Part shown: piece after piece, positions 1-17,718 of the stretch
How the letters are laid out: every line of letters starts with the position of its first letter
How positions within the stretch are numbered: the stretch's first letter is position 1
From: Hyaloperonospora brassicae
Taxonomy: Eukaryota > Oomycota > Peronosporomycetes > Peronosporales > Peronosporaceae
Reading direction: 5' to 3'
Length of the DNA: 64,000 bases
Assembly (NCBI GenBank): GCA_947650285.1
Contig: CANTFL010000002.1
Span: 1 to 64,000, forward strand
Program-made: the position numbers and the translations under genes
The notes under the pieces: model-generated
Database searches by the model: none
What the model was told of the DNA's origin: nothing
What the model saw: the letters and a program-made list of their open reading frames with translations, nothing else

Positions 1-560
1 AAGTCATCTAGCGACCTAAACACATGTGGGTCGCTACTCTCGAGTCCCAGGGACCAAGTTTTGGCACGCCCTGCCAAGTGGGTCTGAGCAAATGTGAGTT
101 TCATTTGCTCATCTTCGACTCGACGAGCCCTTAGGGCTCTTTCGAGTTCGACAAACCACAGAAACAGGGAGTCTTCCGGGACTCCACTGTACTTGGAGAT
201 GTCAACTTTCATGGCTTCGGGACGACGCGCATGTGCCGTCCCGCCCACAGCAGCATGGAATTGCTGCTGTCTCAACAACTCTGTCTGTTGAGCACCGAGT
301 TCTCTCAACTGATCGGCCTGTTGAGAGCCTTGCTGGTGAAGCAAGGCTCCTTTTTCCCTTTCGGCGACAAGTTCATTCTGAATGAACTTGGCGATAGCGG
401 CATGTTGTTGGTCTCTGTCTGGAGACTCCAACATGGCGCTAATAACAAACTCGCCTACGGTAGAACTCATTCGTTCTACCGCACCCAATTCGATCCCACT
501 CAAATAAGTAAACCCTTCACGCGTGGCGTGAAAGGCCTCTTCATCATCCAACATGTTCAT
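1..560 (-). CDS. Ty3/gypsy gag polyprotein, N-terminal part, family A (runs off left edge)
   Basis: Reading the minus strand from an ATG at 560-558 gives an open frame without stops to the window edge (about 186 codons). It starts MNMLDDEEAF, has a Gln/Leu/Glu-rich probable coiled coil around residues 75-105, then a gag-core-like stretch containing KYSGVPEDSLFLWF, followed by QMKLTFAQTHLAGRAKTW. That pattern (small hydrophobic and Trp residues, AxxHLxGxAxxW) is typical of retrotransposon gag capsid cores. The in-frame TAG at 597-595 upstream and the primer site plus LTR immediately before it fix the start. The product would be the capsid precursor of cytoplasmic virus-like particles. No disablement is seen in the visible part. 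Oddity: almost every stretch of this gene is half of a perfect short inverted repeat (see findings). The gag call is firm; the exact family name is not known to me. Confidence 0.78.
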   Translation of the reverse strand, partial: MNMLDDEEAFHATREGFTYLSGIELGAVERMSSTVGEFVISAMLESPDRDQQHAAIAKFIQNELVAEREKGALLHQQGSQQADQLRELGAQQTELLRQQQFHAAVGGTAHARRPEAMKVDISKYSGVPEDSLFLWFVELERALRARRVEDEQMKLTFAQTHLAGRAKTWSLGLESSDPHVFRSLDD

Positions 561-584
561 GTTGGATGCTGTGGTCCTTGGAAG

Positions 585-602
585 GACTACAAAGTGCTAC
601 CA
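585..602 (-). promoter_or_regulatory. Primer binding site of family A element
   Basis: On the minus strand, two bases after the LTR end at 605, the sequence reads TGGTAGCACTTTGTAG. A TGG start right after the 5' LTR is the hallmark of a tRNA-primed minus-strand start site, complementary to a tRNA 3' CCA end. I cannot name the tRNA. It lies 25-40 bases upstream of the gag ATG. Confidence 0.6.
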
Positions 603-604
603 GG

Positions 605-880
605 TGTAACGGGGCACACCCTTGCGTGAACTTAACGCAAGGGTTCCGGTGCGCCCGACAGACGTACACGTGGCAAACGAGGAAGCGTAGGTATGGTAAA
701 AGTAGAAGTGTTATATTAATAAATTAAGTCTTTAAACTACTGTCTCTTCGTTTGACTTACTTCAATTATACTAATATAACTGCATGTATGGTGACGTCTC
801 GTCACCACTCATTGCGCGCGTCTTGCGGCGATTGGTGGGTTGATATCATCACGATATCAACCCATGAACAGACTGTGAGC
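605..880 (-). repeat. Truncated 5' LTR of family A, minus orientation
   Basis: This is the reverse complement of the LTR at 2247-2642: it begins (plus strand) TGTAACGGGGCACACCCTTG and shares the blocks cattgcgcgcgtcttgcggcg and ggcgattggtgggttga, at roughly 85% identity by eye. It should be about 395 bp long but breaks near 880, where a chromodomain reading frame of opposite orientation begins. It contains an exceptional perfect inverted repeat, a 12-bp stem with a 5-base spacer at 836-864. An LTR supplies promoter and polyadenylation signals for the element; I did not identify a TATA box. Confidence 0.75.
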
Positions 881-1137
881 CTAGGGTTCTAGAGGAGGTA
901 TTTCCTCCTCCACCACATCCTTTGGTGGATGCTCACGGTGATCAACGCTTTCTAGTGGAGCGTATCTTGAACCACCGTAACGATTCAGGATCAAGGACGA
1001 GCTACCTCGTCCAGTGGCGGGGGTATCCACCCTCTTGGAACAGCTGGGAGCCCCGCTCTCAGCTGTTGATGGACATTGAAGGTCTCGTCCGCCAGTATGA
1101 CGAGACTCATCCGATTGGTCCGACGGCTCATCGGTAA
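880..1137 (+). pseudogene. C-terminal end of gypsy integrase with chromodomain, family A
   Basis: The frame reads through a Pro-rich linker (VFPPPPHPLVDAHGDQR) into a chromodomain: FLVERILNHRND, then [18 protein letters not shown], then LVRQYDE, ending at TAA 1135-1137. The order of aromatic and charged residues (F/Y...YLVxWxGY...SWEP) is that of chromodomains fused to Ty3/gypsy integrases, which bind chromatin marks and bias integration. Everything upstream (RT, RNase H, integrase core) is missing because the sequence joins a minus-strand LTR at about 880. So this is the 3' fragment of a plus-strand copy. The visible chromodomain itself has no stop or frameshift. Confidence 0.82.
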
Positions 1138-2118
1138 ACACGCGCCCTAGGCGCTTGTAGACGGATTGCAAGTTTTCAACCGCGTCACGCATCTCAGCCG
1201 AGATGTGTGCCCTTCCCCAGGGCGAATCTAGGGAATACACGTCGCTCTGCGCACGTTGCGAGTTCTCAGCACGACTCGCACAAGGGTCTCCCCAAGTGAG
1301 GCATGGAATGCCGGTCTCACTTGATAAATGATGCAACCGGTACCTGGCACCGGTTGGTGTTCGCTTTTCGAACCAGAGGCGTGTCGCCTCAAGCTTCTTG
1401 AGTCACCCTTCTCGTCCAAAATTCTTTACGTTTTGGACGAACGCGTTCCACGCTGCCAAAAGCGAGTTTTTGTCACGCTTTTGGTTGCAGTTGTACCATC
1501 GATGTCTAAGAAAGACATCGAGATAAAAATCCTCTTCAGCGCGAAAGTTGCTCGCGCTGGAACTCAAGCCGTGAAGCTCACTTGCATCGAATAAAGGTAT
1601 TCGATGGTGTTGGCTTGTCTCGTGAGACAAGCCATTGATGAGCCGTTCAGGCAAACGCCACGGCTTCAGCTCATCACGCTTCAGAGTGGTGCCCTTGTCG
1701 GTACCACGGTTTTCAGTATGATGACGGTTCGCACCATCGTCATCACGCTCGTGCGAAGAAGCACGAGTCGGCGGTGGTAAGGAGTAATACCCCTCACCAC
1801 TCTGATCACCTTCATCATCACTGCCGAACAGACTGTGATGCGAATCACGAGTCCGTTCGTTCGGCAGTGGTCTTGGCGAATACTGAGGCGTCGCCGGTGA
1901 TCGAGACGCCTCTGGGACATTGCCCGAGTCAGACACGTCTAACTCGCCAAGTATATGACCTCAATGTCGGGGTCATCATGCGCACGCGGTGTTGTACCGC
2001 GTGAACCTGCAGCACCTCTTGCTGCAGGCGAAGAACGAGCAGCAGACGACGAATCGTCTGCCGCAGAATCTGGCACAGGCACAGACTCTGTGTGCCTTGC
2101 GTCACCCCGCATAGACAT
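881..2118 (-). pseudogene. Antisense ORF in the 3' region of family A element, unknown protein
   Basis: On the minus strand an ATG at 2118 opens a frame beginning MSMRGDARHTESVPVPDS, rich in Ser, Ala and Asp. It reaches a stop near 1945, and a one-base shift there restores a long frame (177 codons, 1960-1406) containing KPWRLPERLINGLSHET and EEDFYLDVFLRHRWYNC. After a single TGA at 1403-1405 the same frame stays open to 881 (LKKLEATRLWFEKRT, then [14 protein letters not shown]). So about 330 codons outside the chromodomain overlap carry one frameshift and one stop. Composition and amphipathic segments look like a real protein; I recognise no domain. It starts 129 bp inside the 3' LTR, so antisense transcription from that LTR is a plausible driver. 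Antisense ORFs at this place are known in some plant gypsy elements; I cannot confirm a match. The portion below 1137 may be only a shadow of the chromodomain. Confidence 0.55.
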
Positions 2119-2237
2119 GTTAACTATGCGAGGTCAGGTCGAGTTATGAACGGAACTAACCCAACAAGTGCTCCCTGTCCCAATGGTGACCAATGAGTGG
2201 CCACCATATTTTCGATAGTCACACAGTGACTATCAGT

Positions 2238-2246
2238 TAAGGGGGG
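2238..2246 (+). promoter_or_regulatory. Polypurine tract
   Basis: The run aagggggg lies directly before the TGTAAC start of the 3' LTR. This is the expected plus-strand priming site and fixes the LTR's left end and the plus orientation of this copy. Confidence 0.7.
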
Positions 2247-2642
2247 TGTAACACGGCAGCTTGTTACAAGGAAATTGTCATTTAGAAGATAATGACAATA
2301 AAGGATATTATGTGGAATATTCTTTTAACAATATTACCAATGGTGATGATATTGATGGGTCGACCAAAGAGTCTGATCATTGGTTGAAAAATATCTTGAC
2401 GATTTCAACCCACCAATCGCCGCAAGACGCGCGCAATGAGTGGTGAGTAGACGTCGTCATACATTCAGTTAGATTAGTATAATTAAGTTAAGTCAAACAG
2501 AGAGACAGTAACAAAAGACTTAATTATATCTTTACAACAGTTTTACTTTTCCCTTATCTACGCTTCCTCGTTTGCATCGTGTACGTCTGTCGGCGTACCA
2601 AAACCCTTGCGTTAATTTCACGCAAGGGTGTGGCCCGTTACA
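2247..2642 (+). repeat. 3' LTR of family A, apparently complete
   Basis: It begins TGTAACACGG and ends GGCCCGTTACA, so TGTAAC/GTTACA form the terminal inverted repeat expected of an LTR; length 396 bp. A polypurine tract precedes it. Relatives in this window are 605-880 (minus), 3451-3628 with 17719-18021, and 33826-34140. It contains serial inverted repeats: 2274-2299 (9-bp stem, 8-base loop), 2382-2410 (8-bp stem) and one about 20 bp before the right end (ACCCTTGCGT against ACGCAAGGGT in the minus copy). The last could fold in the transcript near its 3' end. The stem at 2382-2410 co-varies with the other copies (see findings). Confidence 0.85.
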
Positions 2643-2891
2643 TTTTTGCTCTCGACGTTCGTCTGCGTTGGGGCAAGCGGTGGACCAGTGGCGTCTACGG
2701 CTGCCACTTTCGGAGCAATTTCAGCTGTTCACTTTCGCGAAAACAAAGTCAAGCACACGACGGGTCTGCGTGGAGCAGTGGGCATCTTGGACGTCAAGCA
2801 TCCCGCTAGAGTTGACGTGGACGAAGAATTTTTTACTTCGATGTCATTCGTTTTAGAGTATGTGATTGCGTGGTTTAAGGTGTTCGGATAA
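2643..2891 (+). pseudogene. C-terminal fragment of an unidentified protein-coding gene
   Basis: Immediately after the LTR, one frame is open to TAA 2889-2891. It reads FVCVGASGGPVASTAATFG, then AISAVHFRENKVKHTTGLRG, then AVGILDVKHPARVDVDEEFF, ending FVLEYVIAWFKVFG. The codons carry typical coding bias, the Gly/Ala/Ser-rich start and hydrophobic end suggest a membrane or secretory-pathway protein, and the frame is far more protein-like than the overlapping ones. The 5' part of the gene is not visible; the LTR sits where it should be, so retroelement insertion or rearrangement probably cut the gene. I do not recognise the family. It could be a host gene remnant or a gene part carried by another repeat. 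Confidence 0.45.
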
Positions 2892-3450
2892 ATGGGGGAA
2901 TATGCGAAGTATATATCAGAACCGTGGGTTTTCCTTGGCCTCGTAGCCAGAAGGGAGAATCTAGACAAGGAGCAATGATGAACGCGTGTGCTGAGTAGTT
3001 TTGTTAGGAATCGCGCTTTCGCGCGACAAGCTAACATTAGTTCCACAATTGTGCCACATTTGTCTTTGATTAAGACTGCAGTTGATGATTATAAATGCTG
3101 AGACAAATTAATGCAGCCGCTACCCATATGTAAAACGACCACGTAGACATGACAACGCAGTCGTTGGTAGCTATCGGGTTGCCTGCGAAGTCGATTGCGT
3201 GACTAGATGAGGGTTTCAAACTAGGCGTGCGGAGGTGTCATCGGATTGAAATTTCAATCGATATGAGACATCATCAATCGACATGCAAGATCGATCAAGC
3301 TGACCAAGCCGTCACTTCGATTACATAAAATACTTCTCTTGATGCTGTATGAAGCTGTTGCTCCTTTAACACGAACGGTAGATCCGCTGAGTTATATTAT
3401 AGTGGTATAAGAACGCACGTTTTTCCACCACACTCTACGACCTGTGCATT
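2892..3450. other. Intergenic, nothing recognised
   Basis: No ORF or repeat that I can support. It is AT-rich with a small inverted repeat near 3012-3028. It ends at the start of the interrupted LTR. Confidence 0.4.
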
Positions 3451-3628
3451 TGTAAAGGGGTGAGCCCGTCACATGATTCTTGATGTCTTTGTAGTAATTT
3501 TTGAGCATAATCGATTCCGATAATGTTTAATTTTAAGCATTATTTATTTAAATAAATTTCAATTGACATTACCCGCAAGGAGTAATGCATAAGGCATATA
3601 CCACCGAATAATATTTCTCTGATGGATT
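3451..3628 (+). repeat. Left part of an A-related LTR interrupted by element B
   Basis: It starts TGTAAAGGGGTGAGCCCGTC, comparable to TGTAACACGGCAGCTTGTTA of the LTR at 2247 and to TGTCACTAGCTCGTTACATG at 33826. It continues with the same landmark, a CATTAC/GTAATG hairpin near 3567-3586, and is cut at 3629 where element B begins. The rest resumes at 17719. The outer flank gcatt (3446-3450) nearly repeats as gcagt after 18021, consistent with an old 5-bp target-site duplication. Confidence 0.5.
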
Positions 3629-5011
3629 TGTGGTGGAGCGACTATGGAAATTCGCTATAGAATAATTGATCGCATTCCCGTTATTTCCGAGCCAGCTAAC
3701 GGTTGGCTGCCCGGTCCCACATCTGGTTAGATCGCGTCCATTGGACAGTCAGACTAAAATGGACATCAGATCGGGCAGGTTGGGACGTGCGATCTTGGGT
3801 CAAGGTATGAGGCGGAAGGTAACGTTGGCGATCAGTGGATCAAGAAGGAAACCGCTATCAGCAAGGCAATCGCGATCAAGGAGGCGATCGAGATCGTGCT
3901 CAGTGATCAGGTTTATGATCGAGATCAAGTATGTGGTCGCATTCAAGTTGGTGTGGAGCACACCATGTGATCCGCGATCAGCACGACGATCAGGCAACGA
4001 TCAAGATCGTGATCAGTGATCAGGTATGTGATCGCGATTATGGTCAGTGATCAGGTATGTGATCGCGATTATGGTCAGTGATCAGGTATGTGATTGCGAT
4101 CAAGTTGGTGTGGAGCACACCATGTGATCTGCGATCAGCAAAGCGATCAGGCAACGATCAAGATCGTGATCAGTGATCAGGTATGTGATCGCGATCATGA
4201 TCAGTGATCAGGTATGTGATTGAGATCAAGGTGGTGTGGAGCGGATCATGTGATCCGCGATCAGCAAGACGATCACGATCAGGAAGCGATCGCGATCAGA
4301 CAAGTATATCAGGTGGTGCCACGCAAGTACAAGATCGATAGCGTCTATGGAAAGCGACATGTGGTAAACGATGTCCAAGATATGGGAGTATGGATAGGGT
4401 TGTTGGGTTCGATTGGTTAACATTAAACAGAGTTCAATTTGCTTCAAAGTACACGTGTCGACTTCTCCTCCGGGTGGATCATTGGCCGCCCGACGTCAAG
4501 GAAAGGTTTACATGCTTTAATCAAGTGATATCCCTGGATTGTTTGGCCAGGAAGCAAGATCTCTCAAACGACACCCCAACTGCGACTGGACGCAGGAAAT
4601 CCTTTGTAGTTAAGGACCCAAGATCGCGAGACGGCTCAAGTAATCAGAAGGCTCGCGAATCAAGGTCTACATTTGTACAAGGCGATCTGTTACAGATCAG
4701 GATGAATCATATTGAGCACCCCACAAGCATACAAGTGATCGCGTGACGAATTCCACGTGATCACACCAACCCCGATCGTGGTGTGAAGATTTCAACACCG
4801 TGATCGAACTTCGACCCCATCGCAAACACGGTCAAGTTTTCGATTGACACGAGTCACATGGAAGAGTGCAACCCGCCCCACCGACGGTACAAAAGGTAAG
4901 AAAGGCAGTCAAGAACACGATATCAGAGTACCCCTTCCATAATTCGGTCTTCCGGGCGACAGTGGAGAGTTGGGATCGACTACTCAAAATAGCGATCACC
5001 ACTCCCCTAAA
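3629..5011 (+). repeat. 5' LTR of element B
   Basis: 1383 bp, beginning TGTGGTGGAG and ending at the base before the primer site. Compared with the 3' LTR I see about 18 substitutions, one single-base indel, and one extra 31-bp unit (gtatgtgatcgcgattatgg plus tcagtgatcag) inside the GATC-rich tandem block. Substitutions sit mainly in the first 25 and last 140 bases; about 4240-4870 looks identical in both. The frame 4390-4746 is open identically in both copies but has no family resemblance and is probably chance. Confidence 0.88.
3828..4300. repeat. GATC-dense tandem block within the LTR of element B
   Basis: By hand I count about 39 GATC tetramers in roughly 470 bp, where fewer than two are expected by chance. 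They are arranged in imperfect repeats built from tgatcagtgatcaggtatgtg and gatcaagttggtgtggagca. The same block occurs in the 3' LTR at about 16567-17005 with one unit fewer. Possible roles are an enhancer-like array, a methylation target or a structural element; none is shown. Confidence 0.75.
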
Positions 5012-5029
5012 TGGTGCGCGTACCCGACA
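5012..5029 (+). promoter_or_regulatory. Primer binding site of element B
   Basis: TGGTGCGCGTACCCGACA begins at the base immediately following the inferred 5' LTR end, the standard position for tRNA-primed minus-strand DNA synthesis. I cannot name the primer tRNA. Confidence 0.6.
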
Positions 5030-5490
5030 TGAACCAGCGATATCACCGTAATCCCTGAGTGAAGATGCGAAGATAAAAATTGAACCTGGGATGGAAGCGT
5101 CGAAGGCTAAGGAATCGCCACAGACGCGTAAGTCTGAGAGACTCCCAATTCATCAGAGTTTTAGAAGGGGCTCTAATAACATAAATATAAATAGGAAAAT
5201 CGATCGCTCGATTTGAAAGAAAAACCTCGACCCTCTCCTGTTGTCTATTCGGGGACCACCACGGATCGTGCTACAAATATTGATTTACAGGTCGAAAACC
5301 CATCGGTTAAAACCTAGAAAAAGTTGCCCAAAGTCACACCCGCGATATCGAGAAAAGATCGATTGAGGACTGTGAGGGTGAACAAAACAACGACCAAGCT
5401 TGATCAACGTGATCAAAATGAGAACAAGATCACGAAGCCGTTCAAGTTCGTGGAAGACGAGATCAAGATGGAAGATGGCAATATAAAAAA
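5030..5490 (+). other. Untranslated leader of element B
   Basis: No sustained frame. It is the expected leader between primer site and gag, GATC-rich like the rest of B. Confidence 0.4.
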
Positions 5491-5826
5491 TTGACCAAGA
5501 TGTACGAGCGGAAGATGCTCAAAGATCTACTATCGAGTGACCCAGTACTCCAAGTACTGAATCCAGAACTGATTGATGAGATTCAGGGTCCGGTATCGAC
5601 CCCGGCAAATGCATCGAACATGCCGGAAGCAATCTATGAGATCATGAGACTATTGAATGAAGCTGGATTTGTGGCGATGATGATCTATATAAAAAGGTTG
5701 TTGAATTTTGATCAAGATCAAATTACCTGCGCATGTCGATCGTTGTACGAGAAGCTGATCCCACTCACAGGCAAAGCCATGACTAAAGATCAAGTGAGTA
5801 CCACTATCGCGGACATGACGAAGTAA
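5491..5826 (+). CDS. Possible N-terminal gag segment of element B
   Basis: An uninterrupted 111-codon frame, read from a TTG (the nearest ATG in it is codon 4) to TAA. It holds LLSSDPVLQVLNPELIDEIQ, then ASNMPEAIYEIMRLLNEAGF and CRSLYEKLIPLTGKAMT, mostly helical and amphipathic. It lies where the matrix or N-terminal part of gag is expected, ahead of the capsid core at about 6300, with a stop-riddled interval between. I cannot match it to a named domain. It may be one piece of the same polyprotein or an accessory ORF. It is one of the few stretches in B without a disabling mutation. Confidence 0.45.
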   Translation: MTKMYERKMLKDLLSSDPVLQVLNPELIDEIQGPVSTPANASNMPEAIYEIMRLLNEAGFVAMMIYIKRLLNFDQDQITCACRSLYEKLIPLTGKAMTKDQVSTTIADMTK

Positions 5827-6299
5827 TACCACACCGGATCGTCGCAGTATGCCTCAGCGGGACCCGAGATCGACTCAGACGCCTCGATCGGCATTCAACG
5901 GGAGTCACTAGGCCCCAGTGGATCCTCTCATCTGTATGATCGCGCAAAAGGAATACGGGCTGAGGCTCGATCGGCAGCTATACGCACCACCGGAGATGAC
6001 GCAGTGGTCTTACAAGGACATCTGCTGTACTACATTGATAACGCAATGGAGCGATTCAAACAGAGGCACAGGAGTCAAGCCTGTCAAGCGATCTATCCAA
6101 GTCAAGCAATCTAGATGCCAACAGCGCGATAGACATACTTTCCGGATGTGGAGATGAAGTCGGTCGAATCCCGTCAAGGTCAATCAGACTTTGGCGATCA
6201 CGGGGGACATACCCCGTACGAATCAGAGCGGGAAGACTAGAGGCGGGTATTGATAGCGCCTGCAGCAGTGTCAATAAATCAAGAGCCATCCCCCCATGG

Positions 6300-7344
6300 T
6301 ATCCGTTTCTCGGTGATCAAGAAGCTAAAAGAATTTAATGGTAGAGACCAAATGGAAGATCGCCCAAGAAGCTGGATCAGCAAGGTCATGTCGGCTTTTC
6401 TAACCGGACCACCTACCAGATGAAGAGAAATGCCTGGATTTGATTGATCTACTGACGGGACCGGCACAGAATTGGCACAATCAACTGAGTCGCGCTACTC
6501 GTCGAATTTGATAAGGTCTGCTGAAAGGTTTCATGGTGCAAAATGGAGGGTACGGTGTGTCAAATGCCAGACAGTACTATCACGCACGCAAACGACCGGA
6601 TGAAACCCCGCTGGAGTCTTTACAACGATTAAATGGGGGCAGCGATCCAAGCCAAGGTCACGATTTGAGAAGGAAGACACGCTACGCGGCGTGAACATAT
6701 AAAACATTTTATTTCTACAGTGGAGGATCACGATTTAGCGAAACAGTTGACTCTACTGCGATAGTTGGACGCCGACGACATGGGATAAATGTTGCGTGCG
6801 TATCAGCAGATGAAAAACGGTACAAGAAGGCGTCGGTAGGATCGAGAAATTTTCATCATCGATCTAAAGTTAATGCTGACCAGTTGCCGTAAAAATCAAC
6901 CCGAGCCGTACGAGAGATTAAGGTGGAAAGCGATAGCAGCAGTTCGGAGTCGGATTCAAGCGGATCGGAAGAGGACGTGGACCGGCGCAGAATTTGTACA
7001 ACTACCAGCCCCACTCCAGTGCAATCAAATCAAGATCATTGTATGCCGCATGAGGAAGCAATTGAGGTGGAGTTTTGCAATCACGGAGAACGATCAAAAT
7101 TGTGCACTCACTTTGGATCGACTAAGCATAATAATCGTGTCTGCTGGAAGAGATTGACTTGCCAGAAGTGCGGCGGTATGGGATATCCTTCGGACAAATG
7201 AATTTAAGCGTGGGAAGATTGTGGAGAGTGCATGAGAGTGGCAAGTGCCCTTTGGAAAAGTTTAACAATCTGACACGCCAATGGTATGTGCCTACCAAGC
7301 ACTCAGGAATGTTTCCGTCCGAGAAGGAGGAGATGTTATACTAG
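6300..7344 (+). pseudogene. Gag capsid and zinc-knuckle nucleocapsid, element B (degenerate)
   Basis: The capsid signature appears in pieces across frames: LKEFNGRDQMEDRPRSWISK (about 6325), DEEKCLDLIDLLTGPAQNWH, then QYYHARKRPDETPLESLQRL (about 6563-6630). An acidic-serine linker (ESDSSSSESDSSGSEEDVD, about 6926) precedes a cysteine-rich nucleocapsid: EFCNHGERSKLCTHFGSTKH followed by VCWKRLTCQKCGGMGYPSDK (about 7065-7200), then ESGKCPLEKFNN and PTKHSGMFPSEKEEML in another frame (to 7344). This is the capsid/RNA-binding order of gypsy gag. At least three frame changes and several stops are needed, for example a frameshift after the FLTGP region and a TGA directly after GYPSDK. It would package element RNA if intact. 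Confidence 0.75.
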
Positions 7345-7479
7345 GACGCTCGCCACGATGGAATCTGGTACGAGCCGAGCGTTCTAGGCTCTTCATATAT
7401 GCATTTGTTGACAGACAAGTATAGGATCAAGAACTGAACTACCAGGTCGAGCCGATCGCTAATATATGCATTGATTTAA

Positions 7480-8114
7480 CTTGTTTCCCGGCCATTTCAA
7501 GTGTGCAACGAATTAATGATTATACTCGATCAGCCGTGAAGATGAAGCTCGATATCGCACCAGGGGAATACGTGGAGTTAGAAAAAAATATCCTACGCCT
7601 GGAATATAGTTTAAGCAGGCTAAATCGTTTGGCAAGATCAATAATAAGAAGGCCACTATGCTGTTTGTTCAGGTGCTTAAGTGTCAATCATCGACACCAC
7701 CTTTTCTTGTAAGGTAGGGTGCATGATCGACAAAATCCAGACTCAAGAATGTGTCGGCATAGGGGAAAACGCATACATGACAATTTAGCGCACGAAAATC
7801 AAGATTACATTGGACGGCTCACTAATATTTTTTACGACTTATGGGTCGGTGATCAAGTCGGTCAAGAGGCTATACTAGGTATGAAATTCATGGTTTCGGC
7901 GGGTATTCGCTTGGATCTAGCGGACGTAACGCTATGCCTACCCGATGAAGTCCGCATTGGTCTAGCAGGGCGTAAGCCACTTTATAGACCGACCATCCAA
8001 GCGATCAATTTGAATGATCAACACGTGGCGATACCGGTCGGCAACCCAACAGAATTAAGTATAGGTATCGCGCCACCAAGATCTAAACTGTGGGTAAGAC
8101 GAGACGTAGAGTGA
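7480..8114 (+). pseudogene. Retropepsin-like aspartic protease region, element B (degenerate)
   Basis: The clearest part is the C-terminal half, open at 7719-8114: FYDLWVGDQVGQEAILGMKF, then MVSAGIRLDLADVTLCLPDE. Proteases of gypsy elements have the flap followed by a hydrophobic Gly-rich strand written (I/V)(I/L)LGxDFM; here Lys replaces Asp in GMKFM. The catalytic DTG/DSG triad expected upstream near 7450-7560 could not be found, so it is lost or hidden by frameshifts. It lies correctly between nucleocapsid and RT and would process the polyprotein in the particle. The assignment rests on position and on this strand, so it is moderately sure. Confidence 0.55.
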
Positions 8115-9122
8115 GAACCAACTGTGACTATCGGGCCTAGAAGGATCAACTATCTACAGCTCACAAAACTATGTGATCGCGAGATGATTTTACGCTGGGG
8201 AACTCCATTAGGACTGTGGACGGTAGCGGACACGATACCCCGATCTCAGGGGTACGTTTCTGTGGGGTCGCGACGTTATAACGAGTAGCAGACATTAGCG
8301 TTCGAAGCTACAACTGATCGAGAAGAAGTCTCGCCCGCAACGTATGAAGGACCATTGGTTGATCAGCGATCATATTCTACGCCAAAAAAATTTTTAAACG
8401 CCAAGAAATGAAGACAGAAAAGAGGCAAACGACTGCAGTGCTGACAAGATATAACCTGATTAAAATGTGATCGACGAGGATTTGATGCACTACATAGACG
8501 AGAGTGAACGCGATGATCGCGCTATGAAGAGAGATTAAAGATCGATCAAGGTACTTGTGACGGAACACACAAATGAAAAGACGCAATACGATGAGCGTGT
8601 GCAAACCATGTCAAAGAAATCTAGCAGAGTGGTGAAGCTGCCCGTGACAGAGAGGATCGATTGCGAGGAGCCTGATCAAGGGCATAGAAGATCCATCCAT
8701 CAGCAAGAAGCGATTATACCATGGACGGTGATGGACCAAAAAGTATTAGAAATCAGTCTGACAAGATCGCGAGGGACACAAAAGAGCGGTGTTTGCATCC
8801 CGAGGAAGCTGTTTATCTGCCAACGAAAGTTTCTTCGTCGATCTCTACGACCCAAGAGTGCAGGAGGGGTGATCAGTCACAAGATAGTCATGAGGATTAA
8901 AACCCTAGAGTAAAGATGGTCGACGCAAAAGATATCGGGCGGGGTATCAGCGATTTGCTGTAAGGAGAATCCCGCTGTCAGACAGACGGGAGTGCGATCA
9001 AAGATTGTGATATACCAAAAATATCTGATCGACTGGTGAAATGAAATTCATTGGAGTGATTGGTGAGAAAAAACGGAGGCAGACCCGCCTTTCGCGTCGA
9101 CGTATCGTAATGAAATGGAGAG
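8115..9122 (+). pseudogene. Protease-RT connecting region, element B
   Basis: A frame is open at 8557-8913 (118 codons; Arg/Lys-rich, e.g. KKSSRVVKLPVTERIDCEEP) but I recognise no domain. Length and position fit the spacer preceding the RT fingers in gypsy pol. The rest is stop-rich in all three plus frames. Confidence 0.35.
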
Positions 9123-10290
9123 ATGTATGCTGAGGATATCGATCAGCACATGGCGATCCTACCGGAAGGTGTTACACTGACGGTAGAGATATTTTTAGAG
9201 GAAATTCAAGTGGGTGACCCAGGGAACCCACAGTCGAGTGATCAAAAGAAGGTGCGACAACTAATATGGGCGAATCGCCATCTGCTCATCGGCAAAGGTA
9301 ATGCCCTACCCCGTGCAATTCGTGGAGCGGTCTGTGATATTCATGTTGGAGGCGCTAACCTGATCGCATAAAGAGTGCGACCGGTCGCACCTAATTTCGC
9401 GAGTAGTTAGCTGATCTGATCAAGGATCTATTGACTGCGCAGATAATTCGCCCGTCCACTTCTCCGTGAGCATCACCGATAGTTGTGATTATAAAGAATA
9501 ATGATGAAGATGTTCGATTAGGCATCGAATATAGACGAGTGAATCATCTGACGAGATTGATGGTTTACCCCATGCATTTGGTTAGCTACTTGCTGCAGGA
9601 TATGGATAAAGCCCTGTGGTATTGTTCCTCAGACATGACAAGTGGTTTTTGCTTGGTTAAGATGACGGAGCGAGCAAGCGAGTTATTGGCGTTTATTAAA
9701 CCATCAGGCCTGTTTTTATGGCAAAGGATGCCGTTTGGATTAAAGAATGCACCCCAGATGTACCAACGACTGATTGATAATGCGTTTTATGGACATTTGA
9801 AGATTGGTACACGTCCAACTACTACCGCCTCGGGATCAACAGATCTTACTGATGTGTTTACCGACGAGAGACCGGATTCTGACATGAAAACGCCGGTCCT
9901 TGGCCGAAGGTCATACATCGACGATATACTGGTACCGGTCCCGTCGTGAAAAATTCTCTGCCGCAAAGTGGATTGATTGTTGAACGTGTGTAATCAATGG
10001 GATTTATCGATCAGTCTAACTAAGAGCTTCTGGGGACGATCCAAGGTAGACTACCTAGGTCATCAAGTGTATTTAGCTAAATTATGAGCAAACCCAAAGG
10101 ATCTAGGATCATTGGTCAACATGCCATTTTCTCGCTCCTTTCGGTCGATGCAATCGTTTCTAGAGAGCCTCAACTATTGCAGTCTTTTCATTGAAGGCTT
10201 TCCAGTGTACGCCTTAGTACTGTACGAATTACGAGAAGCCGATTTCCATGAGATCCGTCGAGCGTATGACGACCCAAGACAGTGGGGGTT
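9123..10290 (+). pseudogene. Reverse transcriptase domain, element B
   Basis: Start-side motifs DQKKVRQLIWANRHLLIGKG and IRGAVCDIHVGGANLIA (9220-9370) give way after a stop to the RT core, uninterrupted at 9485-9949: LGIEYRRVNHLT, then KALWYCSSDMTSGFC (first catalytic Asp codon 9632-9634), QRMPFGLKNAPQMYQRLID, and the active-site YIDD (9914-9925). Catalytic Asp residues are all present. Further pieces follow in shifted frames: SISLTKSFWGRSKVDYLGHQ, then MQSFLESLNYCSLFIEGF and LYELREADFHEIRR. Frameshifts lie near 9950 and stops near 9371 and 10085, so no full RT could be made, but the palm is intact. The family call as gypsy-type RT is firm. Confidence 0.88.
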
Positions 10291-10330
10291 GCGAAGCAAA
10301 ATCGGCTGTGTCATTCTGCCCATAAAAACG

Positions 10331-10487
10331 ATAAGAAATTGCATTCAATTCCTGGAGATGATCAGGAATTACATCCAATTGCTGGGTGCGATCAGAAAAT
10401 ACATCCAATTGTTGAGGGCGATCAGGAATTGCACCCAATTGCTGGGGGCTATCAGGAATTACACCCAATTGCTGGGGAAGATCAGGA
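10331..10487 (+). repeat. 30-bp in-frame minisatellite inside pol of element B
   Basis: Five consecutive 30-bp units (10331, 10361, 10391, 10421, 10451) plus a seven-base partial unit, consensus atcaggaattacacccaatt followed by gctggggrcg. Since 30 is a multiple of three, every frame stays open; in the RNase H frame it encodes decapeptides of the form DQELHPIAGG. It sits precisely between RT and RNase H. Unit-to-unit differences are few, so expansion is recent relative to the decay of the gene. Confidence 0.9.
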
Positions 10488-10968
10488 CCCGGAAAGCAGG
10501 ACTATCTGGGAGAAAGCAACGATCGCGTCCACTTTCTTGAAACAGAACATAACGACCACACTCATTTTGAAACAGTTTGACCCGGATCGACCGCCAGTGA
10601 TTGTGGTGTACACCAGCAAGTGGGCTGTGTCGACGGCATTGCTGCAGAAACATGAGGGGGTGTATTGGCCGGTCACTTTTTCAAGCCGTACAGTGAAGCC
10701 CAACGAAATTAACTATGGCATGGTGGAGAAGGAGGTGCTAGCATTGCTAAGGATGCTGGATGTATGCTATACCATGCTGGTGTCTCGTGAGATAACCGTG
10801 CTGACGCGTTCTTCAACCTTAGCCTGGTTGCTACGATCATCCGGTCTCAAAGGGAGATTAGGACGATGGGCTGCATTGGTTTTTAACTGGACACTGGAGA
10901 TCCGTCGATGTGAGAAGGGTGAAGATGAGACGCTGGGTACTCTGGCAGCGATTATACCTCCTCGATAG
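10488..10968 (+). pseudogene. First RNase H domain of pol, element B
   Basis: The frame 10282-10968 runs from the decapeptide repeat into LKQFDPDRPPVIVVYTSKWA, then VSTALLQKHEGVYWPVTFSS, NEINYGMVEKEVLALLRMLD and GRLGRWAALVFNWTLEIRRC, ending at TAG. This is the gypsy RNase H, which removes the RNA template. In this fold the first catalytic Asp precedes the S-K/D-G segment; here Tyr (VVYTSKWA) occupies the site, and the later Asp is Arg (LTRSSTL), while the Glu of EKEVLA is kept. The loss of two of the catalytic acids looks like a property of a domain superseded by the second RNase H just downstream rather than of random decay, because the rest of the domain is open. Confidence 0.8.
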
Positions 10969-11028
10969 AAATTGGATAATAAATTGAGCGCGATTGCGCT
11001 AAAGAAAGATCCCTGACAAACGATCATT

Positions 11029-11433
11029 ATGCCTCCACCTACGGTCGAAAAGAAAGAAAAATCTTTATGTGGCTACTTTTTTATGGGTCTGCTAGAGGTA
11101 AAGAGAAAGTGTGGAGCATTCAGCACAATCTTATGGAGATTACCAGGTATGAATGTTGTGGCTGCCGCATCTGAGTTTGCCCCCGATCTAACGGTAAACG
11201 AAGCAGAGTATAGAAAACTTCTTCTAGGTTTAGATTTGTTGACTGATCAGACCAAGGGAAGGATAATTTTTATGTGGAGATTCAAATTTAGTAATCAGGC
11301 ATATGCGTGGAGAGATCGATTGCAAGGCGCAGGTCTACAACTGCTGAGACATAAAGCGAAAGAAAAACTCCGATCCTGGCCCATACGTGATTTCTTACAT
11401 GTGGAACGCGATTAAAAATCAAGCGCAGCTCGA
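11029..11433 (+). pseudogene. Second RNase H domain (archaeal-type-like), element B
   Basis: The frame reads LTVNEAEYRKLLLGLDLL, the NEAEY motif that carries the catalytic Glu of the second RNase H class, then LQLLRHKAKEKLRSWPIRDF. The remaining catalytic motif GDSNLVIR is visible at about 11276-11299 but one frame over, so a pair of compensating frameshifts surrounds it. At the first motif the other frame reads FYGSARG, with Tyr at the position where these domains carry Asp. I recall that oomycete and some plant LTR elements carry an extra archaeal-type RNase H; the order RH, second RH, INT fits. The product would be an active RNase H in an intact relative. Confidence 0.65.
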
Positions 11434-13020
11434 TTGGCAAGTGAAGCTCTGCGGAAAGAGAAAGTTGGGATAGTGGTGAATCACCAAGATCGCCAAGATC
11501 TGTTGACTCTGAAATGGCTAGATGAGTTACTGAAACCCCGCAAGACGAAGCAGAAGGTTGAAGTAGCTGCAATTACCCGTGCTGCCGCAAGACGACGCCA
11601 TTCGCCACAATATATTCCAGAGGAGATCGTACAACAGATACGAATCGAAAGGATCAAACAAGCGCAGGATGAAGAGAGTTAGATCTTTAATTTGAAGATC
11701 TATTCGACTGGAGACGTATCAACGATTGCATCAGCGGATGCAAAATCATGTGCCTTGATCGCGCCGGACTATGAGGTCGATCGGGACGAGTGTTGCGCTT
11801 TTGTCCCAGATCAGCTATAAAGTCAAATTATCGCGTAGAGCTGGGCCGGATGGTGATTTCGAAGCTATTGCAGCAGAATTTTTACATCATTATCCTACCA
11901 GTTTGGAGGGTGGACACCAGATTTTAGGTCGAATTTACCAGAGGATCAGGGCGAAGTTTCACTGATGAGGTGTGTATAGAAGTGTGCAACGGTATGTAAA
12001 AGAGTGTTTGGATTGCGAGACTGGTAAAGGCCGCCCCTGCGATCGAAGTGGCTCGCCGGGCAACGTAAAGCGACTTACGCGTTTTGGATTCTAGCGATGG
12101 ATCATATTCCTTCTTTGCAGCGATCGTCAAAGTAAAACAGAGAGTTGTTGCTCAGGTTCGATCTGCTCTCTGGATATGTAGTTGCGAAGGCGAGTGAATC
12201 TCAAACCAAACAAACAATCGCGGAAAATAACGAATGATGTGTATTTAGAAGGTTTGGCGCAAGTGAAGAAATTCGTCACGATTGTGAGCCAGGATTCATG
12301 TCTGATTTCTTTCGGGCGTTTATTCGCATCATTGGCTACAAATAACAAGCTACTTTGGCTTATAGGCTACAAGCAAACGGCACAGCAGAGCGCATGGTGC
12401 AGACGGTAACTAGGGCTATTAAGATGCATGTGCCGGACGAATAATATAGAGATTGGAAAGAATATGCCGAGCGATTGACATACGCGATCAACACCGCGCA
12501 TGATCGAATTCGCAGGGACACCCCATTTTTCTGATCACGGTTGAAACCTTTGATCAACTTTGAAAGCCACGTTACCCCTAGGGAGTACTGCGGCGCGAGA
12601 TCGAGATCCACGACGATGGCGATTTAGCATACAACGCCATTATCAACGGGCGAGAGCGGCGGTCAACAGACGACTAAAGGAAGCAATTTAAATACGCGCT
12701 GATCAGCATACTCAGGATCTCGATCTGCTATACATATGCAGCGGATCAAAATTCTGGTCATATATGGATCGCGTAAAGGAGGGGTAGGCTGGGAAACTGA
12801 CACATATGTGGCACGGACCGTTCCGTGTGATCGACAAGTGCGGGGATCACGCGGTGAGATAGGAAATAGCATGTACGCCCTAACAAGTCTTCCCAGTGGT
12901 TCACGTGTCGAAGCTGAAACTCGTACGACTGTTTCCGGATCGAATGATGGAACAAATGATAATAAGCGAAGCGGATCGATTTTTTTTACGAAGCTTTATA
13001 ACCAGAAGACAGTTGGATAG
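11434..13020 (+). pseudogene. Integrase, element B (zinc-binding, DD35E core and C-terminal part)
   Basis: A linker (WLDELLKPRKTKQKVEV) is followed by the HHCC zinc domain: FLHHYPTSLEGGHQILGRIY, then YVKECLDCETGKG. The catalytic core is a single frame from 12094 to about 12545 in which AMDHIP (Asp codon 12100), RHDCEPGFM (Asp codon 12280) and GTAERMVQ (Glu codon 12388) give exactly 35 residues between the second and third acids. Five in-frame stops interrupt it, including CAC TGA TGA upstream, where family members have Trp-Arg. The C-terminal part THMWHGPFRVIDKCGDHAV and VVHVSKLKLVRLFPDR (12800-12945) follows after frame changes. It would insert the element DNA into chromatin if intact. Confidence 0.85.
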
Positions 13021-13205
13021 GCCATCTGGCAGACGACGAGTTCGAAGTCGAGAGAGCAACGATAATGCGATTAGGACGGGGGACACGTTGTGGCAGGGTG
13101 CAACGACAGTTCAAAGTCTATTGGAAAGGATATGGGGATTCGTCTTGGGTGGACGAAGCCGACTTACACTGTTAAGCATTGATACAAGAATGGAATCGTA
13201 ATCGT
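13021..13205 (+). pseudogene. Integrase chromodomain, element B
   Basis: In the frame starting GHLADDEFEVERATIMRLG the text continues RRQ/VQRQFKVYWKGYGDSSWVDEAD, the Y-W-K-G-Y and SWVDE pattern of a chromodomain, with one stop after ADLHC. It is the second chromodomain in the window; the other (880-1137) belongs to family A, and the two differ strongly. Its role would be targeting integration to marked chromatin. Confidence 0.75.
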
Positions 13206-13851
13206 GTGCGGAAGAATTGGATTAAAGTGATGCAGTCGCATGAAGAGGAGAATGCGGGTGTGCTCGGGTCAGGTCGTTGACTTGAGGTCACGTACAGGAA
13301 GGTTGTACGGGAAGGTGGAAAGGCGTTAGATGTTGTGAGTATGGCAATCAAAGATTTACCGACGTGATCGCGCAGGTGAAGATCTAGCAGTTAAAGAGAT
13401 CGACAGTGATCAGCATCGATAATTCTGATCGCAGTGATCAGATCGGTGAATCTTTGATCGCGAGCGATCTGGACAGAGGGTAACCCGATCGAGCATGGTT
13501 TAAGAGAAGAAGAAGCATGGAGAGGATTTCAACAATGGATTAAAAGGATAAATACAAGAGAGAATATTGATATTGAACGGAGAGACTGACAACTCTTGGA
13601 CGATCAGCAAGGGAAGAATTTGCCAGAGATATGGGTGATCGACGATGCAGGATGTTTTGCGATCGCGGACCAATAATAATTACGCAACGGCTGGGCTGAG
13701 TCAACTAGCGACAAGGCAGTGATCAAGTTTAGAATCTTCGTCGTCTTGCATCCTAGACCAGGGCACTACAATCTTTTTCTGACGAGGTCGGGAAGTGTAA
13801 AAAGAAGGCGTACAACAGAATGTACTAGTTGCAACGTCCGTCGATCATCCC
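13206..13851. other. GATC-rich spacer after integrase, element B
   Basis: No sustained coding frame in either orientation. Rich in GATC, like the LTRs. It separates the integrase from the antisense coding region on the other strand. Confidence 0.4.
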
Positions 13852-16203
13852 TTAAAGTATAAAGCGGAGGACAGTTTTCCAACGAGGTCCCGATCGCGAT
13901 CGGCGTTGCCGGCGCTCTTCACAAAACACGGCCAATCCCGGATCTGCCTGGAGCTGCCGACTGGAGATGGGGAGAACGTGAGTCTCATCGCATAGCGCCT
14001 GTCGATGACGATCTTCAAACCCGCGATACGTTTTTATCAACTCCTTAATCCACCCAGTCACTGGAAAGGAGAGCGGATCGATCGATTAATCGATAATTTT
14101 TCATGATTTTTGGCTGCAGAGAGACGTGACATGCGCAGAAAAAATCAACTTGGGAGCCCATTGATCGGCCCGGAGTTCCGACGGCCCCGGTGCCTTGTAC
14201 GCGAGGAACAAATATAATTTCGACTTGAAGAAATGTTTGACCATGAACTCCACTTCCAGCTCAGCGACATGGTATAGCTGACTCGACGCGACGACCAGGG
14301 TCTTACTTGAAAAGTTGACCGGGGAACGCGACAGCTGTACCCAGGGATCCACTGATCGCGCGGTACGCGAGTGGCTGGCAGCGCAATGTACTGGCCGGGA
14401 GACAACATATTGTACACGTCCTCGCGATCATCACTGGCCATGCTGAGACTGCCAGACATATCGCTCGACAGCTCGCACATAAGATTGATTTTGGATACCT
14501 GTGCTTTTTTAGGAGTCGTCGATGGAGCCGGAGAAGAAGATCGCGAGTTAAGGCTGAATTCTTCAATGACGATCGTGAATGCAGGTCGATCTAGTTTGGT
14601 CAATTTAGCAGAATTTAAAGCTCGTCTACGGAGAGTAGATTGCGAACCAGATAACGCGGCGCGGGTGGCATCCCTCGAAGCACTGGACGAATAGCTCAAG
14701 TCGCATGACAAAGAAAACCAATTTTTCGGATTCGCTCGACTTTCCATCTCTTCTTGCAACGTCTTCGTGGAGATCACCGGTGCCCCCTATACCGGAGAAG
14801 GATAAGCAGGATTTTTCGGGCATGCCCATGGTGAACGCTCGGACGATACCGATCACTTGTGCTTAGGTGATCGCGTTGAACTAGCTGACCTCCCGTGAGA
14901 AGGCAATCGTGCGGGGGTTCTACCGGTGCGGATGCAGTAGACTCGGGAGGATCGACAGTTCTCAGCGACTCAGCTGATTGTGCGGCATTTTTGTCAAAGC
15001 CGACATAGTTGATCGCGTGGGCTAGTTCGATCGCGGGAACGTAGTATACTTGGTTGATTTTGTACGCAGTGCAGGCTTGCCCAATTGCTGGATCTTTTCT
15101 CGTTGCTTAGAAGCATCCGTCTGCACCGTATCAGCTGATCGCGTGGATGGAGATGATCGCGTAGTCCGAGCGGAAGACTTTGAGCGGGCAGATCGAGTCA
15201 AAGTCCTGGTAGGGGTCGGAGGAGAGGAGTCTCCGGAAACCTGAGAACGCTTAAACGATAGATCATTCTTACTGTCGCTCCGATTACGATTGCTGCCCGA
15301 AGAAGCTGAAAGTTACGCTGTAGCAAACGGACGTCCAGATACCAGCTGATCTATATGAGCCCGAAGTTGGTCGCGATCAGCTACAGCAAGAATACGATCG
15401 ACGATCGCGACATCGCGAGCATTTTCTCGGTCCTAAATCTTACGATGATGACGCGCATTTTCGGAGTGGAAACCCGCCATTACCTTGCGCAATCGATCCA
15501 GTTCGCTCTTTTTATCCGTGATCTCCGCTCCATGTTGATCACGCAGCGTAGAAAATGACGCGATCTATTTCTCGAGATCAGCTATCCTCTGCTAATCGCG
15601 AGCAGAAGCACCCTGATATTTCTTCGCGTCGGCGTCGTGGAGATCCCGGATCGACTCGAGCTGCCAAATCGGGATTAAAACTTTTGCTTAAGCTAGCTGA
15701 TCTCTTGCCGACAATTTATCTCGAGAGATGCACGACCATCAGTCTGGTCACGCCGACTCTTCTGTGGGCGAGATGAGACATTTTCGGACAGGAATGTCTT
15801 CAAGCGCTCGATCTCGTTTTCCAAGTCGTGATTTCCCGCCACCCGAACCTCCTGCTTGTTCAAGACGCCTTCTTATTCTTTGCTGGTATGACGAGCCTTC
15901 TGAAAGTGGAGAACAAACGATCGAAACGATGCTGGACATATCCACGCAACTGGATCCCGATTCACGCAACGCTTTCAACTCCTTCTCCAGCCGATCGCCG
16001 CGGTGCTTCTCGTCTTTCGGCGCACCTTCATTGGAGCCGTTACGCCTTAAGATTATCTCATAGCTCTCGATGCGATCGTAAAGAGTGGCGACCATGCCGG
16101 CCTTTGTCGGTCGACTAACATAAACAGCGGTCGTCACCTTGGTACTGAGAAGAAGCGAGTACGACCCGTCGTACGACCCATTGGGATCGCGGAAGTGCGT
16201 CAT
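13852..16203 (-). pseudogene. Antisense coding region of element B, coiled-coil-like protein
   Basis: Minus-strand frames lie end to end: 16203-15748 (151 codons, ATG start; LLLSTKVTTAVYVSRPTKAG, then VATLYDRIESYEIILRRN and DRLEKELKALRESGSS), continuing through a decayed Glu/Lys/Arg-rich stretch to about 15400 (AEITDKKSELDRLRKVM), a Ser/Thr/Arg-rich stretch (SKSSARTTRSSPSTRSADT, about 15150), 14777-14145 (210 codons; EEMESRANPKNWFSL) and 14061-13852 (WIKELIKTYRGFEDRHRQA). Several stops look like CAG to TAG. The heptad-like middle suggests coiled coils. No domain is recognised. It starts 165 bp inside the 3' LTR, the same position as the antisense ORF in family A. Whether it is one protein is inference. 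Confidence 0.5.
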
Positions 16204-16367: not shown

Positions 16368-17718
16368 TGTGGTGTAGCGAATACGGAAATTCGCTATAGA
16401 ATAATTGATCGCATTCCCGTTATTTCCGAGCCAGCTAACGGTTGGCTGCCCGGTCCCACATCTGGTTAGATCGCGTCCATTGGACAGTCAGACTAAAATG
16501 GACATCAGATCGGGCAGGTTGGGACGTGCGATCTTGGGTCAAGGTATGAGGCGGAAGGTAACGTTGGCGATCAGTGGATCAAGAAGGAAACCGCTATCAG
16601 CAAGGCAATCGCGATCAAGGAGGCGATCGAGATCGTGCTCAGTGATCAGGTTTATGATCGAGATCAAGTATGTGGTCGCATTCAAGTTGGTGTGGAGCAC
16701 ACCATGTGATCCGCGATCAGCACGACGATCAGGCAACGATCAAGATCGTGATCAGTGATCAGGTATGTGATCGCGATTATGGTCAGTGATCAGGTATGTG
16801 ATTGCGATCAAGTTGGTGTGGAGCACACCATGTGATCTGCGATCAGCACGACGATCAGGCAACGATCAAGATCGTGATCAGTGATCAGGTATGTGATCGC
16901 GATCATGATCAGTGATCAGGTATGTGATTGAGATCAAGTTGGTGTGGAGCGGATCATGTGATCCGCGATCAGCAAGACGATCACGATCAGGAAGCGATCG
17001 CGATCAGACAAGTATATCAGGTGGTGCCACGCAAGTACAAGATCGATAGCGTCTATGGAAAGCGACATGTGGTAAACGATGTCCAAGATATGGGAGTATG
17101 GATAGGGTTGTTGGGTTCGATTGGTTAACATTAAACAGAGTTCAATTTGCTTCAAAGTACACGTGTCGACTTCTCCTCCGGGTGGATCATTGGCCGCCCG
17201 ACGTCAAGGAAAGGTTTACATGCTTTAATCAAGTGATATCCCTGGATTGTTTGGCCAGGAAGCAAGATCTCTCAAACGACACCCCAACTGCGACTGGACG
17301 CAGGAAATCCTTTGTAGTTAAGGACCCAAGATCGCGAGACGGCTCAAGTAATCAGAAGGCTCGCGAATCAAGGTCTACATTTGTACAAGGCGATCTGTTA
17401 CAGATCAGGATGAATCATATTGAGCACCCCACAAGCATACAAGTGATCGCGTGACGAATTCCACGTGATCACACCAACCCCGATCGTGGTGTGAAGATTT
17501 CAACACCGTGATCGAACTTCGACCCCATCGCAAACACGGTCAAGTTTTCGATTGACACGAGTCACATGGAAGAGTGCAACCCGCCCACCGACGGTACAAA
17601 AGGTAAGGAAGGCAATCAAGAACACAATATCAGAGTACCCCTTCCATAATTCGGTCGTCCGGGCGCCAGTGGAGAGTTGGGATCGACTCCTCAAAAGAGC
17701 GATCACTACTCCACCACA
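16368..17718 (+). repeat. 3' LTR of element B
   Basis: 1351 bp, from TGTGGTGTAGCG to CTCCACCACA. About 98.7% identical to the 5' copy by eye excluding the missing 31-bp unit. The left 9-10 bases differ by one from the 5' LTR, so the perfect terminal inverted repeat is read from the outermost ends of the element. Confidence 0.88.

Follow-up and report, generated by a model that had tools for sequence, protein, structure and literature searches.

Short perfect hairpins tile coding and noncoding parts of a Ty3/Gypsy retrotransposon in Hyaloperonospora brassicae

The oomycete Hyaloperonospora brassicae carries a high-copy long terminal repeat (LTR) retrotransposon of ~8.0 kb, here called family A, that encodes gag-pol and an antisense gene. 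The window analyzed here is the first 64,000 nucleotides of contig CANTFL010000002.1 (GenBank assembly GCA_947650285.1). Its start, positions 1 to 2642, consists of two family A copies, both truncated and in opposite orientation, that meet near position 873. We report that the whole element is tiled with short perfect hairpins, and we present their number, predicted folding, and variation among copies.

Results

Copies were sought in the contigs of the 100.6-Mb assembly, in which the window is the start of one contig. Positions 1 to 590 recur, full length or nearly so, at 39 or more other places with 94 to 96% identity, and positions 881 to 2240 at 39 or more with 89 to 92% (each among the best 40 of ~1,700 candidates scored). 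A 200-amino-acid (aa) piece of the reverse transcriptase (RT) has at least 150 matches at ≥98% identity. Ten stretches were fetched, nine with a complete copy and the tenth, L026, with a partial one. The full-length copy L017 spans positions 206 to 8190 of its stretch, with LTRs at 206 to 597 and 7800 to 8190 (392 bp, 99.7% identical), and shows the Pfam order Retrotrans_gag, RVP_2, RVT_1, RT_RNaseH, Integrase_H2C2, and rve. With two LTRs, gag, and the order protease, RT, RNase H, and integrase, family A is a Ty3/Gypsy (Metaviridae) LTR retrotransposon. Chromoviruses, a branch of this group, carry a chromodomain where integrase ends. Pol of L017 also matches SH3_Tf2-1; no Chromo match was found in the pieces scanned with Pfam, among which the equivalent of window positions 883 to 1137 did not stand as a piece of its own. 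Relatives of Gag include many Peronospora matthiolae proteins, the best named one 73% identical over its full length. Searches of the viral_contigs and genome_contigs databases found no relatives.

The 3′ end of the element carries the antisense gene (L017 6394 to 7776, minus strand; window 881 to 1936, minus strand). Its protein has 17 relatives at 39 to 87% identity; the three that are named come from Hyaloperonospora and Peronospora. Unpaired sites vary at 12.7, 16.9, and 26.0% of codon positions 1, 2, and 3, and stem sites at 4.5, 5.9, and 5.9%. Judged by these relatives and this codon-position gradient, the gene looks real, and antisense RNA would therefore be expected. The protein matched no Pfam family, with coiled-coil models alone appearing in one or two of 11 relatives, and its predicted structure (predicted local distance difference test score of 49) forms one helical domain with no fold match in the PDB at E ≤ 0.001. 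"Core-binding (CB) domain" is what a UniRef record calls it. A further antisense frame lies over gag/pol (L017 1501 to 2115, minus strand); it is open for 205 to 207 aa in seven of the nine full-length copies and for 173 and 182 aa in the others, and is perhaps a by-product of near self-complementary sequence.

Stems were defined as perfect Watson-Crick arms of ≥7 bp with loops of 3 to 12 nt. The first-pass annotation of the window had listed 29 inverted repeats in the retroelement genes; all 29 are present, with the arm length given or one base more (the outer arm alone was tested for the composite repeats at 395 to 441, 1293 to 1323, and 1819 to 1869). It had also put about 12 stems against fewer than one expected by chance in positions 1 to 590. 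Positions 1 to 600 hold 11, against a mean of 0.34 in 100 dinucleotide shuffles (maximum, 2), and positions 881 to 2240, where nearly every stretch had been described as half of an inverted repeat, hold 21 against 0.74 (maximum, 4). With 200 shuffles, the means were 0.35 (maximum, 3) for positions 1 to 604, where the gag part of copy 1 has 11 hairpins, 0.69 (maximum, 4) for the internal part of copy 2, which has 21, and 1.31 (maximum, 7) for positions 1 to 2642, which have 38. Positions 5000 to 14000 are at background (7 stems against 4.5 in dinucleotide shuffles).

Gag, chromodomain, and antisense open reading frame (ORF) had been taken for one coding region shaped as a whole. The stems stand, while the single element resolves into two copies and the proposed extent proved too small, since the whole element is tiled, LTRs included. 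L017 has 137 stems, or ~17 per kb, distributed at 17.9 per kb in the 5′ LTR, 17.7 in gag, 15.7 in pol, 20.7 in the antisense-gene region, and 17.9 in the 3′ LTR (7 stems in 392 bp), against 1.2 in the flank. All nine full-length copies are tiled, with 109 to 137 stems each (13.7 to 17.2 per kb) and 0 to 3 per 500 bp outside. Of 173 distinct stems, 44 are common to all nine copies, which lie on nine contigs. The similar density in single-coding and noncoding parts (15.7 to 20.7 per kb) rules out overlapping genes as the cause, and the joint constraint from sense and antisense genes suggested earlier is set aside.

Codon shuffles of L017 left the protein, its codon usage, and nearly every 3-1 dinucleotide (the one spanning a codon boundary) intact; loops of 3 to 15 nt were allowed, and each gene was shuffled 60 times. 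A similar stem count in such shuffles had been named as one result that would refute the first-pass reading. The counts are far apart: 21 stems were seen in gag against 2.1, 80 in pol against 6.3, and 31 in the antisense ORF against 3.6. Because codon shuffles lose most stems, the stems sit largely in synonymous codon choice, and codon usage and protein sequence are ruled out as their cause. The codon register that pairs positions 1-2 and 3-3 is the rarest in each gene (pol, 16 against 30 and 34; gag, 4 against 8 and 9; antisense ORF, 9 against 12 and 10). Hairpins thus far exceed expectation from composition or from protein and codon use, in coding and noncoding parts alike.

Arms are mostly 7 to 10 bp and loops mostly 3 to 12 nt, most commonly 4 nt, and whole hairpins are 17 to 33 nt long (mode, 23 to 24). 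An arm of 7 to 9 bp gains a further pair with a probability of 0.56 to 0.80 and one of 10 bp with a probability of 0.21, compared with 0.18 to 0.28 in chance stems, and longer arms have lower GC content (rho = −0.39, P = 1e-6; chance stems, rho = 0.01). Because arms saturate at 10 bp and trade length for GC, selection appears to favor stability up to a limit. Substrates of Dicer have stems of ~20 bp. The longest perfect arm is 12 bp in L017 and 13 bp in one other copy, and the Dicer-length stem of a microRNA (miRNA)-like precursor is therefore absent. One copy has 124 perfect stems and 15 one-mismatch forms; among the one-mismatch stems of L017, A-C (7) is no rarer than G-T (3). Complementarity beyond the arms is near chance (0.20 to 0.37). 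The 31 4-nt loops of one copy have 31 different sequences, so no 4-nt loop motif is shared (longer loops lay outside the search).

Predicted folding was measured as MFED, the minimum free energy excess over dinucleotide shuffles, in 240-nt folding windows and again in 350-nt ones. L017 reaches 50.1% on the sense and 49.3% on the antisense strand (240 nt), which bears out the earlier view of a sequence shaped to fold and near-symmetric between strands. At the same setting, the older copy L024 has 40.0%, phage MS2 30.1%, the flank 7.4%, a 9.6-kb piece of the window 4.7%, and five other RT loci 0.8%. With 350-nt folding windows, the mean for family A is 48.9% and the lowest value 25.6% (44 folding windows, one copy), and the two copies in our window give 42.5% and 31.0%. 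Local partition functions predict a mean pair probability of >0.8 for 136 of the 145 stems in sense orientation and for 133 of them in antisense. Predicted pair weight spanning ≤35 nt is 81% in the element, 51% in a shuffle, and 60% in MS2.

Variants present in two or more copies (shared) have arisen in replicating lineages, and those in one copy (private) are mostly postinsertion. Among the nine copies, shared variants at third codon positions affect 11 of 535 stem sites and 103 of 1,342 unpaired sites (P = 3e-7; shared:private, P = 0.02). At sites in neither the gag nor the pol frame, the counts are 21 of 524 and 129 of 962 (P = 7e-10; shared:private, P = 0.0004). First and second codon positions show no significant difference between stem and unpaired sites. 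Third-position stem sites carry shared variants (2.1%) about as rarely as unpaired first and second positions do (2.0 and 1.8%), which further supports the view of a sequence shaped to fold.

The 3′ region was compared in 15 distinct copies, with stems defined in L017 and variants scored in 12 others. The proportion of sites with a shared variant is 4.2% in stems (35 of 837), 17.8% in loops (53 of 297), and 11.4% between hairpins (193 of 1,697), whereas private variants are even, at 19.2, 20.9, and 18.4% (shared:private, P = 9e-9). When each of the 15 copies served as reference, at majority-base sites, shared variants were 2.5- to 5.0-fold rarer in stems, with odds ratios of 0.20 to 0.44 and P < 0.001 every time (these tests are not independent of one another). 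Across the 3′ third, shared but not private variants are depleted about threefold in stems; purifying selection thus maintains the stems while lineages replicate, and the loops are free.

Stem changes that leave G-T and A-C are about equally frequent in the 3′ region (shared, 10 and 12; private, 46 and 54), and both are depleted among shared variants relative to nonstem sites (P = 0.001 and 0.0005). Since G-T and A-C are equally disfavored, both strands seem to matter; it appears that selection sees both strands or that the pairing is too exacting for wobble. Selection on the sense RNA alone was rejected, as G-T is not preferred over A-C.

The first-pass annotation had proposed testing stem pairs for covariation among family copies. 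Double changes that keep the pair exist; they are few, and the antisense-gene piece has no excess of them. In the nine copies, changes in both arms keep the pair in 15 cells and lose it in 4, of 8,504. In the 3′ region, 10 of 18 both-changed cells are Watson-Crick, against 5.9 with shuffled partners (maximum, 16 in 300 shuffles). Some altered pairs went from A-T to G-C by changes on both sides, and in one place two subfamilies build alternative hairpins from different bases; what is maintained thus seems to be folding as such and no particular structure.

Arms lie in less conserved protein columns: family A identity to the RT piece L058 is 0.41 in arms and 0.61 elsewhere, and between L057 and L058 the values are 0.45 and 0.62. 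The candidate that stems rewrite the protein was rejected, since family A deviates from conserved columns in 15 of 87 cases inside arms and 26 of 231 outside (P = 0.19).

Hairpin tiling is not a general property of the retroelements of this genome. All 30 of the RVT_1 loci examined (the best 30 of at least 150) have 0 to 1.3 stems per kb. Eight further RT loci comprise a family A copy (16.0 per kb), the relatives B1 (7.5) and B2 (4.0), both at 62% aa identity, relatives at 56% and 30% identity (1.0 each), and three with no BLASTP match (0.0 to 1.5), so that five of the eight lie at 0 to 1.5. Of five more B loci, one B1 has 7.5 and four B2 have 2.5 to 4.0 stems per kb. Family A is thus strongly tiled with perfect stems, B1 moderately, and B2 weakly; the next relative shows almost no tiling.

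Discussion

The anatomy of family A resembles that of viruses with genome-scale ordered RNA structure (GORS). These have hundreds of consecutive stem-loops in coding sequence, with poorly conserved positions, conserved folding, and MFED as the measure, according to the accessible text of PMC7642675. Family A likewise folds above shuffles along its whole genome and keeps folding more than pairs: A and B1 are both hairpin enriched, and none of 289 stem pairs of A is shared with B1 or B2 (B1 and B2 share 36), so there is no deep conservation of stems. That text quotes an MFED of 15% for SARS-CoV-2 and of 23.4%, its highest vertebrate-virus value, for a deltacoronavirus, against ~49% for family A (350 nt), although a different shuffling program was used there. 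Family A differs from these viruses in being an oomycete LTR retrotransposon with perfect, strand-symmetric stems. Its synonymous stem sites are visibly constrained, while constraint does not closely follow MFED in the viral account (PMC7642675, same portion). GORS was described for positive-strand RNA viruses with persistence and reduced innate recognition, and family A is an integrated retroelement; it works like GORS by analogy of anatomy and is not a strict member.

Phage MS2 is also a coding RNA folded nearly everywhere (MFED, 28 to 30%), but it has 2.0 perfect stems per kb against 17, less short-range pair weight, and unequal strands (plus, 28.5%; minus, 24.2%). The shared loop motif expected of leviviral packaging signals does not occur among the 4-nt loops of the copy examined. 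Ty3 and Ty1 are LTR retrotransposons with mapped RNA secondary structure, that of family A being predicted; they are mosaics in which stable regions make up at most ~30% of the RNA, with no tiling by short perfect hairpins in the accessible part of PMC11381356. The miRNA-like hairpins of maize transposable elements are likewise local hairpins within retrotransposons. Those maize regions draw more small RNAs, as the accessible part of PMC10760457 has it; the arms of family A are shorter than such precursors need, and its hairpins are element-wide. We found no description of hairpin-tiled LTR retrotransposons in the literature listings searched, of which subscription papers and preprints were largely outside the scope.

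The effect size exceeds every yardstick tried here. Family A is a natural coding genome with local self-pairing above all of them and excess folding ~1.7 times that of MS2, and selection on pairing can be read from its own copies. The purpose of whole-genome folding, a long-standing question, becomes testable, since relatives with strong, weak, and no tiling in one host genome allow small RNAs and expression to be compared family by family.

We tentatively favor the reading that the whole element is shaped into local hairpins that act as a silencing shield; of the first-pass candidates, silencing escape would fit best. Tiling with changeable hairpins and like-folding strands follows the logic proposed for GORS, in which folding itself, and no particular structure, would matter (PMC7642675). 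Through the hairpins, genomic (sense) RNA and antisense transcripts alike would stay in local folds, which would disfavor sense-antisense duplexes and pairing with small RNAs, and each stem would be too short for Dicer. Small RNAs of 25/26 nt arise from transposable elements in Phytophthora (PMC3804510, in part), and GORS transcripts escape innate recognition in cells (PMC3950689, in part). A stronger form is possible but doubtful in our view, namely, that silencing is evaded by architecture alone: the entire genome, LTRs included, would be strand-symmetric hairpins of roughly small-RNA length, and sense, antisense, and small RNAs would each fold on themselves, neither pairing with one another nor being diced.

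Several results weigh against a selected silencing shield. The greater small-RNA yield of maize hairpin regions is the opposite of what a shield predicts. The nine copies show a slight deficit of private variants in stems as well (6.1%; loops, 9.3%; between, 7.6%), and a reduced rate of mutation or detection in stems may therefore play some part there. For the 5′ piece (seven other copies, covering gag and early pol), stem sites carry marginally fewer shared variants than the rest (7 of 668 against 33 of 1,420, P = 0.058) and also fewer private ones (29 against 118, P = 0.0007); the shared:private ratio is no different in stems (7:29) from that outside them (33:118, P = 0.83). Compensatory changes are few: the 423 pairs of the 3′ region yielded one shared and six private types of double change. 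In the antisense-gene piece taken by itself, 7 cells have paired double changes against 5.7 expected. Stem number falls with copy age, a suggestive trend (rho = 0.65, P = 0.058, n = 9). The antisense gene is restricted to the 3′ end and the hairpins are everywhere. The absence of stem pairs shared with B1 and B2 counts here as well, and MFED lacks a strict tiling order (240 nt): B1 has 11.5%, B2 4.7% despite its 4 stems per kb, and the next relative 16.2%. The 2-kb RT pieces L058 and L059 have MFED of 13 to 16% with 1.0 and 0 perfect stems per kb, in contrast to the 0.8% that five other RT loci give in combination.

A role in replication is somewhat unlikely but a serious rival. Here the hairpins would compact the genomic RNA for particles or structure the cDNA and reverse transcription, with selection on the fold of the RNA and of the minus-strand DNA. 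Both sense RNA and antisense cDNA occur single-stranded in the LTR retrotransposon cycle, which fits the strand symmetry, and the tiling matches the reverse-transcribed unit, LTRs included; of the yardsticks used, MS2, whose RNA is packaged, is the most structured. Against it, most sampled retroelement loci do without hairpin tiling, as the 30 RVT_1 loci illustrate, and the well-folded regions of Ty3 and Ty1 are limited as noted above. The loops are the most variable part and no 4-nt loop recurs, unlike coat-protein packaging signals, and for these reasons RNA structure for packaging via a loop motif, an earlier candidate, is unlikely.

A mutational origin by quasi-palindrome correction or template switching, in which the nascent strand folds back during reverse transcription so that one arm templates the other, is improbable. 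It would account for the perfect Watson-Crick stems with few one-mismatch forms and for the rarity of private variants in stems of the 5′ piece, and in some stems found in B1 only, one arm is conserved and the other rewritten relative to B2 (differences of 4:0, 1:7, and 1:5, counted by eye); other B1-only stems are altered in both arms. Arm copying predicts paired double changes near the neutral rate, against the few types seen in the 423 pairs, and does not explain why arms gain no length past 10 bp or why longer ones have less GC. The codon register that conflicts most with the amino acids is the rarest, and stems sit at protein-tolerant sites, in other families too, which points to selection. 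As the maintaining force, template switching, suggested in the first pass, is disfavored: private variants in the 3′ region are even, shared ones are depleted, and arms stop at 10 bp. It may have helped create the raw stems.

We give even less weight to selection at the DNA level, for example, on cruciforms with an effect on chromatin or integration. Perfect Watson-Crick stems and the symmetry between strands would suit it, but arms this short extrude poorly as cruciforms. Because private, mostly postinsertion variants in the 3′ region strike stems like other sites, integrated DNA does not seem to be what selection sees. Chance, composition, codon usage, overlapping genes, or an assembly artifact can be practically dismissed, given the dinucleotide and codon shuffles, the stems common to copies on nine contigs, and protein relatives in outside databases.

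Features of the window

The features of the two family A copies are listed in Table 1. Copy 1 ends inside its LTR at 872 and at the contig end at 1. Its gag piece gives a weak Ty3_capsid match, below the Pfam cutoff; the full-length copy L017 matches Retrotrans_gag at 4e-16.

Table 1. Family A features at positions 1 to 2642 of the window
Feature	Positions	Strand	Description
Copy 1 of family A	1..872	-	5′ element part: LTR piece, primer-site region, gag start; ~L017 330-1201, 94% identity
Gag N terminus, 186 aa	3..560	-	ATG at 560; frame open to window edge
Perfect hairpins (11), gag part of copy 1	9..568		9-36, 85-111, 218-243, 247-270, 271-292, 302-327, 325-349, 368-390, 458-481, 516-532, 545-568
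Partial LTR, copy 1	605..872	-	Stems 618-644, 789-807, 836-864
Copy 2 of family A	875..2642	+	5′-truncated: pol end, antisense-gene region, 3′ LTR; 875-2503 ~L017 6429-8050, 90%
Antisense gene, C-terminal part	881..1336	-	Different frame from middle part in copy 2
Pol C-terminal end	883..1137	+	Candidate, presumably chromodomain-like; motif recognized by eye in the translation
Perfect hairpins (21), internal part of copy 2	892..2234		892-910, 909-929, 995-1012, 1082-1106, 1257-1280, 1334-1356, 1412-1440, 1456-1484, 1499-1521, 1537-1559, 1585-1606, 1611-1634, 1719-1745, 1748-1767, 1885-1912, 1983-2003, 2006-2028, 2042-2061, 2077-2097, 2108-2130, 2214-2234
Antisense gene (antisense ORF), middle part	1403..1936	-	Relatives found with the longer L017 frame
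3′ LTR of copy 2 (TG...CA)	2247..2642	+	86% identity to L017 LTR; stems 2247-2268, 2274-2299, 2603-2629

At 869 to 880, the two truncated family A copies meet in opposite orientation, and a nested insertion and a rearrangement are candidate origins of this junction. Elsewhere in the window, blocks at 3629 to 5017 and 16368 to 17724, ~12.7 kb apart, contain pieces 91 to 99% alike, including GATC-rich repeats. An inverted repeat at 35905 to 36126 and 37164 to 37384 consists of two adjacent arm pairs of 112 to 114 bp (89 to 93% identity), ~1 kb apart, and is possibly a transposon with terminal inverted repeats.

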